Assembly (NCBI GenBank): GCA_017454015.1
Contig: JAFTDW010000060.1
Coordinates: 43,339 to 107,338 of the forward strand
Length of the DNA: 64,000 nt
DNA from: Bacteroidales bacterium
GTDB taxonomy: Bacteria; Bacteroidota; Bacteroidia; Bacteroidales; P3
Direction of reading: 5' to 3'
Positions 20,897 through 24,538 of the stretch are shown here, in pieces. A model generated the notes under the pieces. That model was not told where the DNA came from. It made no database searches and saw only the letters and a list, made by a program, of their open reading frames with translations. Positions within the stretch are counted from its first letter, which is position 1. Each line of letters opens with the position of its first letter. The position numbers were made by a program, and so were the translations under genes.

Positions 20897-23800
20897 TTGT
20901 ACTCTATTGGCATTGCGATATATGACCTTGCCGTGCGCATAGCGGCCCTCTTCTCGAAGAAAGCCCGCCTCATGGTGCATGGTTGGCACGACACCTTTGT
21001 CCGTCTCGCGCAACCGCAAGCTTTGCCCCAAGACCGCGCGAGGGTTTGGTTCCACGTCTCTTCTCTCGGCGAGTTCGAGCAGGCCCGCCCTGTACTTGAA
21101 CGCTACCGCGAGATGCACCCCGACCATTTTGTGCTGCTCACCTTCTTCTCACCCTCGGGCTACGAAGTGCGCAAAAACTACAGCGGAGCCGATTTGGTGT
21201 GCTACCTTCCAATGGACACACCGCGCAACGCACGCCGCCTCGTCAGCACCATACAGCCGTCCAAGGTGTTTTTTGTAAAATACGACTTCTGGTTCAACAC
21301 TATGCGCGAGCTGAAACGCCGCGACATACCCCTATACATCTTCTCTGCCATATTCCGTCCCAAGCAGTACTTCTTTGGCTGGTACGGGGGCTGGTTTCTG
21401 CGACAGCTCAACTGCTTCACCCATATCTTTGTGCAGAACGACGAGTCACTGCAACTTCTTAGCAGCCACGGCATAAAGCATTGCAGCATAGCTGGCGACA
21501 CACGTTTCGACCGAGTGTTCCAGATAGCAGCCAGCGCACAGCCTTCAGTCGTTGCCGAGCAGTTTGTGGCAGCCCACGGCACAGGCGACCACATCATTGT
21601 TGCAGGCAGCACATGGCCGCCCGACGAGCAGCTGCTCGCAAACTATTTCAAACTGCGCCAATCGGCTCCGCTCGACAATAAGATACTGCTAATCATAGCC
21701 CCACATGTGGTAGAAGAGAGTCACATACGCCATATAGAGCAGCTTTTCGCTGCACCTGATGTAAAGACTGCTCGTTACTCGTCACTACTGAGTTCCGATG
21801 GCGCTGGCCGTCAGTCGGAGAGCCCCAACGTGCTGATTATCGACAACTACGGGCTCCTGTCGTCGCTGTACCGCTATGCCGATGTGGTGTACATCGGAGG
21901 CGGCTTCGGACACGGCATACACAACATACTTGAAGCTATAACTTTTGGCAAGCCTGTTTGTTTCGGTCCTAACTACCACAAGTTCCAAGAGGCTCGCGAC
22001 ATCATCAGGCTCGGCGGCGGCACCAGCATTAAAGACACTGAAGGCCTCGCCCGTCAGTTCGACCTATGGTTCACCGACACAGAAGTTTACAACGAAGCTT
22101 CACAGACATGCCGACACTATGTGGAAAGCAACAAAGGCGGATGCGACAAAATTGTACGCATCTTCTCGCTCGTTTTTGTCCTTTCCACTTTCCTAGCCCT
22201 CGCCACCTCGTGCAGTGTCAACAAATTCGTTGCGCCCGACGACAAACTGCTCTACAGCAACCACTACAGCATAGAGATGCCCGACGAGAGCAAGCCGCCC
22301 GAGGAGATAGCCAACGTGCTTAAAAGTCTCAAAAGCTACGCAGCACAAAGCCCCAACAAGAAATTCCTCGGCATACGCTGGGGCATGCGCCTATACTGCC
22401 TCTCATCTCCCACCGACACCAACTGGTTTCACAACTACCTGCGCCGCAACGAACAACACCCTGTGGTATACGACGAGAACGCCACACGCCGCACCGCATC
22501 ACAACTACAGTCGCTCATGGTCACCAAGGGCTGCTTCTCGTCGACAGTGGACTACGACACAACCGTCCGGGGGCGCAACATAGTGGTAACCTACCACTTG
22601 AGACCATCACCACGCTACCTTGTCAACGAAATAACATATAACATACCAGAACCTGAAATACTCAAGCTTGTCAAGGCACAAAGCAAAGAGTCGTACCTCC
22701 ATGCAGGAGACTACTACGACCAAGACCTTGTGGCCAAGGAACGCGACCGCATAGTGCAAAACCTGCTCGAAGCAGGATACTACAGAGCCACGCCCTCTAT
22801 AGTATCATTTCTGCTCGACACCACCTACACCCCAGGACGTATCGACATGGAGATTGCCGTCAACAAGAACGTAGCCCTCACTGGCAACAACCTCCGTCAG
22901 TACAAAATCAAGGACATATTCATCTATCAAGGCAGCAATCGCAGCGACCTAATTTTCGACACCTCGTACTATGAATCACACTTCCGTGGCCGCACCACAC
23001 GCTATGCCATTCTCTCTGTCCCCGACACCTTGCGCAAGCATCAAGTGTCACCTAAAGTAATATGTCGTAACCTCATGCTTTTCAGCGGTCAATACTACCA
23101 CCCAAACAACCGCTCACGCACATACAACTCACTCCTCGCGCTACGCAATTTCAAGTATATTGACATCGATTTTGTAGAGTCCACGCCATCTGCCGACACC
23201 ACCCCCACCGTCGACGCCCGCATACGACTGCTCTCCAGTCCGCGACAAAAACTGTCGGCCTCACTCGAGCTCAACAACTCCTCCTCCTTCGGCACCCAGG
23301 GAAGCGATGCCGCCGCCATGATAGGCAGCGGCAACTTCGGGTTGGAGACGGTCCTCGAATACCAGAACCGCAATCTCTTCGGCGGCGCCGAGCTGCTCAA
23401 AGTCGATGCATCCCTGCTCGTAGAGCTGCCAAAACTTATCATCAGCCAAGGCGCCTCCAAATTCCACGACGCATTCACCGCTTTTGAGAGCGGCCTCGAC
23501 GTATCGCTCGACCTGCCGCAATTTCTGCTCCCCTTCACGCGCAACATACTGTTTCAGCGCATGCGCCCTCATACCGTGCTCAGCATCGGCACCAACTACC
23601 AGTACCGTACTTACTTCGAGCGAATGCTCGCCAATATGTCGTTCGGCTATAGCTGGAGCTCCACCTCGCAAACGCGCCACCAACTGCTGCCTATAGAACT
23701 CACTTTCGTGAAATTCATCGACAAAGACGAGGCCTTCGTCTCTCGGCTCGAAAGGATTTCCGACCTCCGACTCAAATATCAGTACAGTGACCACTTTATC

Positions 23801-24538
23801 ATGGACTGCCGCTACGACTTCCTGCACAGCAGCCAGATACCCAACCGCCGCATAAACTTCAACTACCTGCACCTCACCCTCGAAACCGCCGGCAACCTGC
23901 TGCAAACCCTCAGCATCCTCTCCAACGGCCCCTCCGACCAAAACGGCATACGACAGTTTTTCGGCGTGCCTTACTCACAGTACCTGCGCGCCAACGTCGA
24001 CATGAAACGCTACTTCTATCTCTCCGAGCGCAACACTTTCGTAACCAGACTTCTACTTGGCATTGGCATTCCCTATGCCAACAGCCTCTCCATGCCCTAT
24101 GAGAAAAGCTTCTTCGGCGGTGGCCCAACCACTATGCGTGCATGGCAACTGCGCCATCTGGGGCCGGGCCTATACAGCAACGTGGACAATCCCATGGCCG
24201 AGCGTGTTGGCGACATGACACTCGTTCTCAACCTCGAAGACCGCTTTCACATAGCATCAATCTTCGAGGGGGCACTCTTTGCCGACATAGGCAACGTTTG
24301 GCTAACACATGAGAGCAGCGAGTTCGAAGGCGGCAAATTCGAGGCCGCCAAGATGCTGCAAAGCCTCGCCGTGGGTGCAGGATTCGGACTGCGACTCAAG
24401 GTCTCCATAATCACGCTGCGCCTCGACCTCGCCATACCCGTCTACGACCCAGGCTACGAGCCGACACACCGCTGGCGCCCACCCTACTGGAAAATCTCAC
24501 AGATAGTAACCAACCTCGGCATCGACTACCCATTCTGA
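20897..24538 (+). CDS. kdtA-tamL: KdtA (Kdo transferase) fused in frame to a TamL-like Omp85 lipoprotein/barrel
   Basis: One uninterrupted 1213-codon frame holds two proteins. Residues 1 to about 422 are a Kdo transferase: glycosyltransferase start with a TTG codon (MYSIGIAIYDLAVRIA), VSSLGEFEQARPV, AGSTWPPDE and GGGFGHGIHNILEAITFGKP. This enzyme adds Kdo to lipid A precursor at the inner membrane. Directly after the KdtA C-terminus comes a complete lipoprotein signal, FSLVFVLSTFLALATSC (lipobox Cys439). POTRA-like segments and a C-terminal Omp85 barrel follow (about 790-1213), as in TamL-like proteins of Bacteroidota. No ATG lies at the junction. An in-frame GTG at 22121 (codon 409) could restart translation. 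A real fusion, internal initiation or a lost stop are all possible. Confidence 0.75.
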   Translation: MYSIGIAIYDLAVRIAALFSKKARLMVHGWHDTFVRLAQPQALPQDRARVWFHVSSLGEFEQARPVLERYREMHPDHFVLLTFFSPSGYEVRKNYSGADLVCYLPMDTPRNARRLVSTIQPSKVFFVKYDFWFNTMRELKRRDIPLYIFSAIFRPKQYFFGWYGGWFLRQLNCFTHIFVQNDESLQLLSSHGIKHCSIAGDTRFDRVFQIAASAQPSVVAEQFVAAHGTGDHIIVAGSTWPPDEQLLANYFKLRQSAPLDNKILLIIAPHVVEESHIRHIEQLFAAPDVKTARYSSLLSSDGAGRQSESPNVLIIDNYGLLSSLYRYADVVYIGGGFGHGIHNILEAITFGKPVCFGPNYHKFQEARDIIRLGGGTSIKDTEGLARQFDLWFTDTEVYNEASQTCRHYVESNKGGCDKIVRIFSLVFVLSTFLALATSCSVNKFVAPDDKLLYSNHYSIEMPDESKPPEEIANVLKSLKSYAAQSPNKKFLGIRWGMRLYCLSSPTDTNWFHNYLRRNEQHPVVYDENATRRTASQLQSLMVTKGCFSSTVDYDTTVRGRNIVVTYHLRPSPRYLVNEITYNIPEPEILKLVKAQSKESYLHAGDYYDQDLVAKERDRIVQNLLEAGYYRATPSIVSFLLDTTYTPGRIDMEIAVNKNVALTGNNLRQYKIKDIFIYQGSNRSDLIFDTSYYESHFRGRTTRYAILSVPDTLRKHQVSPKVICRNLMLFSGQYYHPNNRSRTYNSLLALRNFKYIDIDFVESTPSADTTPTVDARIRLLSSPRQKLSASLELNNSSSFGTQGSDAAAMIGSGNFGLETVLEYQNRNLFGGAELLKVDASLLVELPKLIISQGASKFHDAFTAFESGLDVSLDLPQFLLPFTRNILFQRMRPHTVLSIGTNYQYRTYFERMLANMSFGYSWSSTSQTRHQLLPIELTFVKFIDKDEAFVSRLERISDLRLKYQYSDHFIMDCRYDFLHSSQIPNRRINFNYLHLTLETAGNLLQTLSILSNGPSDQNGIRQFFGVPYSQYLRANVDMKRYFYLSERNTFVTRLLLGIGIPYANSLSMPYEKSFFGGGPTTMRAWQLRHLGPGLYSNVDNPMAERVGDMTLVLNLEDRFHIASIFEGALFADIGNVWLTHESSEFEGGKFEAAKMLQSLAVGAGFGLRLKVSIITLRLDLAIPVYDPGYEPTHRWRPPYWKISQIVTNLGIDYPF

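Follow-up and report, generated by a model that had tools for sequence, protein, structure and literature searches.

An in-frame KdtA-TamL fusion with an internal lipoprotein signal in a Bacteroidales genome and in related species

Results

A Kdo transferase and a TamL protein share one reading frame

The window, the 64,000-nucleotide stretch of DNA that was analysed, contains at 20897–24538 on the forward strand a single frame of 1213 amino acids that begins with a TTG and runs without a stop across the junction of a KdtA (Kdo transferase) part and a TamL part. A sequence-only reading had claimed an in-frame KdtA-TamL fusion at these coordinates with a lipobox cysteine, Cys439, inside the ORF. 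The Pfam and NCBIfam matches and the stop-free frame bear out this anatomy and its coordinates, and a charged and then a hydrophobic stretch precede the cysteine. The locus comprises the following features.

20897..22147, + strand: KdtA (Kdo transferase) part, residues 1–417; from Pfam, NCBIfam, PDB 2xci/4bfc, and the TTG start context
22121..22123, + strand: in-frame GTG, residue 409, possible internal TamL start; from the start-context score and codon comparison
22148..22210, + strand: junction, in which KdtA C-terminal residues are merged with the signal (charged residues 418–421, hydrophobic core, lipobox); from sequence reading
22211..22213, + strand: lipobox Cys439, predicted Lgt/LspA site; from the lipobox rule
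22211..24538, + strand: TamL part (POTRA region and Omp85 barrel), stop included; from NCBIfam NF052279 and Pfam Omp85

Glycos_transf_N was found at residues 36–206 (Pfam, E = 7.1e-42; 143.4 bits against a cut-off of 23.9), and the KdtA part also matches the solved Kdo transferases PDB 2xci and 4bfc. Five NCBIfam KdtA models match within residues 22–424, all below their equivalog cut-offs (best 146 bits against 438); four fused relatives described below (genomes G080, G111, G163, and G164) likewise fall below these cut-offs, and hence we base the KdtA name on the Pfam domain, the PDB match, and the genes around it. The lipo_TamL model NF052279 spans residues 431–1213 with 620.7 bits against a cut-off of 400, and Omp85 was found at residues 1027–1193 (Pfam, E = 1.1e-18), while POTRA in the fused frame scores below its Pfam cut-off. 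We scored start contexts with a model built from 232 genes of the window's genome (in-sample AUC 0.945); TTG 20897 scores 11.07, above 57% of presumed true starts, which makes it a good start. These matches predict that the KdtA half is a Kdo transferase that would transfer Kdo to a lipid A precursor, and that the TamL half belongs to the lipo_TamL family and would act at the outer membrane with TamB, whose gene is present elsewhere in the genome (G000:C28). A sequence search of the genome found no second copy of KdtA or TamL, the fused locus being the sole match.

Glu at window residue 59 is kept in all 193 KdtA loci. Lys128 of the window's KdtA (21278–21280) occupies the position of a Glu in 2xci, which we take to be the Aquifex KdtA/WaaA structure, and this Glu is presumably an active-site residue. 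Lys is found at this position in 193 of 193 loci, fused or separate, including 35 from L161–L197 outside the family's pairs.

The junction carries a lipoprotein signal

All lipoprotein signals were judged by script rules rather than by a signal-peptide predictor. Under these rules, the signal at Cys439 consists of a charged and then a hydrophobic stretch directly before the cysteine, its strength lies within the range of 108 separate TamL signals, and its lipobox letters recur in 4 of those 108. A rule-based scan for internal lipobox signals returned Cys439 alone among 230 ORFs of at least 220 residues in 394,684 bases that include the window, and one signal among 457 such ORFs of the relative G016, at residue 129, where the start is perhaps over-extended.

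Only 22–25 residues lie between a conserved KdtA glycine and the lipobox cysteine in the window, G080, G163 (by reading), and G164, and 45 in G111; separate KdtA proteins have a median of 12 residues from this glycine to their stop. The KdtA tail seems to have been turned into the charged start of the lipoprotein signal. KdtA acts at the inner membrane from the cytoplasmic side and TamL acts beyond that membrane, so a signal between the two halves sits in the right orientation: its charged side would be cytoplasmic and its lipobox periplasmic, in agreement with a cytoplasm-facing KdtA.

Relatives usually carry two adjacent genes

To place the fusion among its relatives, we searched all 120 genomes of the genus, 110 of which gave a match, and took loci from 108, omitting G044 and G088. 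We also searched all 190 genomes of the family, of which 177 matched; 67 of the 70 family genomes outside the genus match, and as DNA was read in 8 of these and the others were judged among the matches listed, the number of fusions is a minimum. Of loci L001–L117, 115 hold both halves, L027 (no KdtA in reach) and L103 (the second piece of G080) being excluded. A stop ends KdtA in 110 of these loci and is lacking in the remaining 5, the window's own among them. The evidence on a point that the earlier reading had held decisive against the fusion, a stop at the junction in relatives, is thus mixed, with most relatives stopping and a few reading through; these relatives are other species, the window's own being represented by one assembly.

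Of the 110 separate loci, 19 have TamL in the same frame as KdtA (frame 0), 55 have it in frame +1, and 36 in frame +2. The best-scoring TamL start falls inside the KdtA frame in 59 of the 108 separate loci with a scored start, from which we take the usual state in relatives to be a tight or overlapping kdtA-tamL pair. Among the best-scoring TamL starts of separate loci, TTG is the most frequent (71 of 108), as judged by a score trained on the window's genome alone, which limits its use for relatives. Two genomes of the genus, G027 (98% complete) and G087 (96%), gave no match to KdtA or TamL, and L027 (in G074) has TamL with no KdtA match in 1.5 kb upstream, unlike the other genus loci fetched.

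The fusion recurs within the family

At least four further species of the family lack a stop at the junction: the sisters G080 and G111, and G163 and G164 of another genus. KdtA and TamL were recognised by NCBIfam in all four genes, although TamL of G080 reaches 117.5 bits on its cut piece, below the cut-off. The G080 gene is cut by the end of its contig after 635 aligned query residues; the match resumes at query residue 639 on another contig of this genome, starting at base 8. For G111, position and junction sequence agree with the public record JAUNHX010000002.1. About ten further apparent fusions among relatives were rejected because stops lie between the halves.

G080 and G111 are 80% identical and both fused, and their junctions differ in length by 22 residues, in frame. 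Over 63 comparable junction codons, dN is 0.23 and dS, close to saturation, is 2.78, which indicates that the frame across the junction is under purifying selection in this pair; dS is saturated for KdtA and for the start of TamL.

In a tree of 115 rows (L160 added, L065 left out because of masked bases), the G080/G111 pair sits in a fully supported group with three separate relatives and the window lies elsewhere, while in the other genus G164 and the separate G167 form a pair (support 89). The fused or separate label needs four changes on this tree, three of which are forced by the starred branches. On a more careful tree of 38 rows, the three fusions within the genus require two changes, and none of 200 bootstrap trees allowed a single change. 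The trees therefore do not support one shared origin for these three, and as judged by tree position the window's fusion is separate from that of G080 and G111; the window's nearest neighbours are not firmly placed in either tree. The changes may be gains or losses, gains being the simpler reading because separate genes prevail.

We also surveyed a sample of 393 genomes of the order, among them at least 5 members of the family, and saw no fusion outside the family. At E ≤ 1e-150 two of these genomes match, the window's own and that of the separate relative G069, with at most two candidates per genome scored among the matches listed.

Neither an assembly error nor decay accounts well for the locus

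The window belongs to a MAG-like assembly from a gut bacterium, 93.86% complete, whose 63 contigs total 2.3 Mb, and the window's fusion is known from this single MAG. The true genome might hold two ordinary overlapping genes: a slight change in length close to the junction would be enough to restore such a pair, as an out-of-frame ATG (22141) stands just before the signal. Out-of-frame starts also precede the signals of G080 and G164, however, so that the ATG is not telling. We compared 592 ORFs of G016 with 394,684 bases of the window's genome, 99 of them giving a hit, and found no frameshift candidate in 40,256 aligned residues. The rule of three then puts hidden frameshifts at no more than about one per 40 kb, with the reservation that the test could miss short frameshifted ends. 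When the comparison was run the other way, 96 of 301 ORFs gave a hit and a single place was picked out, namely the fusion; the test is hence able to detect such events. Together with at least four further fusions from other MAGs, these results make an error at the junction improbable, and the missed stop or indel for which the sequence-only reading had proposed a check is very unlikely.

A neutral, decaying fusion in which one half is losing function could be suspected from the window's end branch, which measures 0.63 against a median of 0.19, but the separate relative L104 has a still longer one, 0.77. Both halves are full length and keep the residues common to all 50 KdtA and all 48 TamL aligned rows, each is the only copy found in the genome, and G080 and G111 evolve under constraint. 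We consider decay highly improbable.

How the two proteins may be made

We favour, with a probability of roughly 0.6, a real in-frame fusion gene whose product is one chain that is lipidated at Cys439 and split by signal peptidase II (LspA). The ribosome would make one chain, with KdtA in the cytoplasm, the signal crossing the membrane, and TamL in the periplasm. Lgt would then attach lipid to Cys439 and LspA would cut just before it, which would free TamL as a normal outer-membrane lipoprotein, while KdtA would keep the used signal as a membrane tail at its C-terminus. The fusion may have arisen when a tight or overlapping kdtA-tamL pair lost the KdtA stop in the frame of TamL, probably more than once in the family, and would be tolerated because the signal already cuts the chain. 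As KdtA has no stop, it would, frameshifts aside, be made only with TamL attached. Translation as one chain, the topology, the cleavage, and the function of both products are what we infer from the sequences. Whether the locus exemplifies a naturally recurring polyprotein, in which a cytoplasmic enzyme and an outer-membrane lipoprotein are made one-to-one and split by LspA with the enzyme left tail-anchored, we hold to be an evenly balanced question.

The TamL family is named in PMC4494059. In Flavobacterium johnsoniae, according to PMC12045153, attempts at a TamL variant without the lipidated cysteine failed. By analogy, TamL seems to need its lipidated N-terminus, and the window's chain should accordingly be lipidated at Cys439 and cut by LspA.

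Lgt is present in the window's genome. LspA (PF01252) was not found in the 93.86% complete assembly, which is one of 6 misses in the genus, where 35 of 41 genomes have it, and it is present in all four other fused genomes. Ordinary lipoprotein signals were identified by the script rules in 20 of 302 ORFs of the window's genome. Given these signals and the prevalence of LspA in the genus, we assume that the gene probably lies in a gap in the assembly. Among the open-licence papers listed in our literature searches, we saw none in which LspA cuts a chain that has a cytoplasmic domain of 400 residues ahead of the signal, none on a KdtA-TamA fusion or on a Kdo transferase fusion in Bacteroidetes, and none on the cytochrome b/c1 precedent discussed below.

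The sequence-only reading had offered two ways of making the product, a single chain tethering KdtA to the barrel or an internal start at a GTG, and omitted the likeliest, a cut by LspA. Left uncut, the chain would hold inner-membrane KdtA to the outer-membrane TamL barrel, as the uninterrupted frame and the LspA gene not found in the assembly would allow. Yet the intact lipobox should be cut, few linker residues would be available to span the periplasm, and TamL apparently needs a lipidated N-terminus in F. johnsoniae (PMC12045153). For this last reason in particular, a permanent tether is most unlikely.

The second option, in which TamL is made mainly by internal initiation and the fused chain is a by-product, has a candidate codon. 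The GTG at 22121 exists as claimed (residue 409), and no other in-frame start codon occurs in the 60 codons that precede Cys439. Its score of 4.9 lies above 28% of presumed true starts (232 genes); among 5525 internal in-frame start codons, 1.6% score higher. Genes of this genome often start with GTG or TTG (34 and 46 of 232, respectively). Moreover, the best-scoring TamL starts within the KdtA frame in the 59 separate relatives noted above show the same placement, and G111 and G164 have good-scoring in-frame start codons, which lie inside the hydrophobic stretch and so would leave no charged n-region. On the other hand, a motif match places ATG at the homologous codon in 69 of 111 loci, and a codon for Val or Leu in 32 of the other 42; this KdtA position is thus mostly Met, Val, or Leu in relatives, by which the start codon at 22121 is explained. 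In the other four fused species the homologous codon is GTA, GTT, ACA, or GTC, none a start codon. G080 has no in-frame start codon scoring above −0.55 within 78 codons before the cysteine, and those near its signal lie inside the hydrophobic core. An internal start as a common feature of the fused genes is thus not borne out by the codon comparison, and even with such a start KdtA would remain without a stop and hence be made as a fusion. GTG 22121 is a possible but not a strong internal start, and we regard it as unlikely to be the main source of TamL.

Discussion

If the chain is made and cut by LspA as proposed, it would show that lipoprotein signals are able to function a long way from the N-terminus and that natural polyproteins can be split by signal peptidase II. 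Predictors that seek signals only at the N-terminus would then miss such lipoproteins. The synthesis of a lipopolysaccharide enzyme would also be coupled to that of an outer-membrane assembly factor, both KdtA and TamL serving envelope building. Repeated fusion within one family would amount to a small natural experiment on the fusing of adjacent genes.

The window's TamL resembles F. johnsoniae TamL (Fjoh_1464), as described in PMC12045153, in belonging to the lipo_TamL family, in its lipobox and Omp85 barrel, and in having its TamB gene elsewhere in the genome. It differs in that a glycosyltransferase precedes its signal within one longer frame. The N- and C-terminal parts of the KdtA/WaaA structure 2xci align with the window's KdtA, which lacks a stop codon and whose C-terminal end continues into the lipoprotein signal.

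Polyproteins cut by signal peptidase have precedent. The fbcH gene of Bradyrhizobium encodes a cytochrome b/c1 polyprotein whose internal signal is cut by signal peptidase I, giving two subunits of one complex. In both cases one gene encodes two envelope proteins and contains an internal signal. The window's gene differs from fbcH in that its predicted signal is a lipoprotein signal and its two proteins belong to different pathways.
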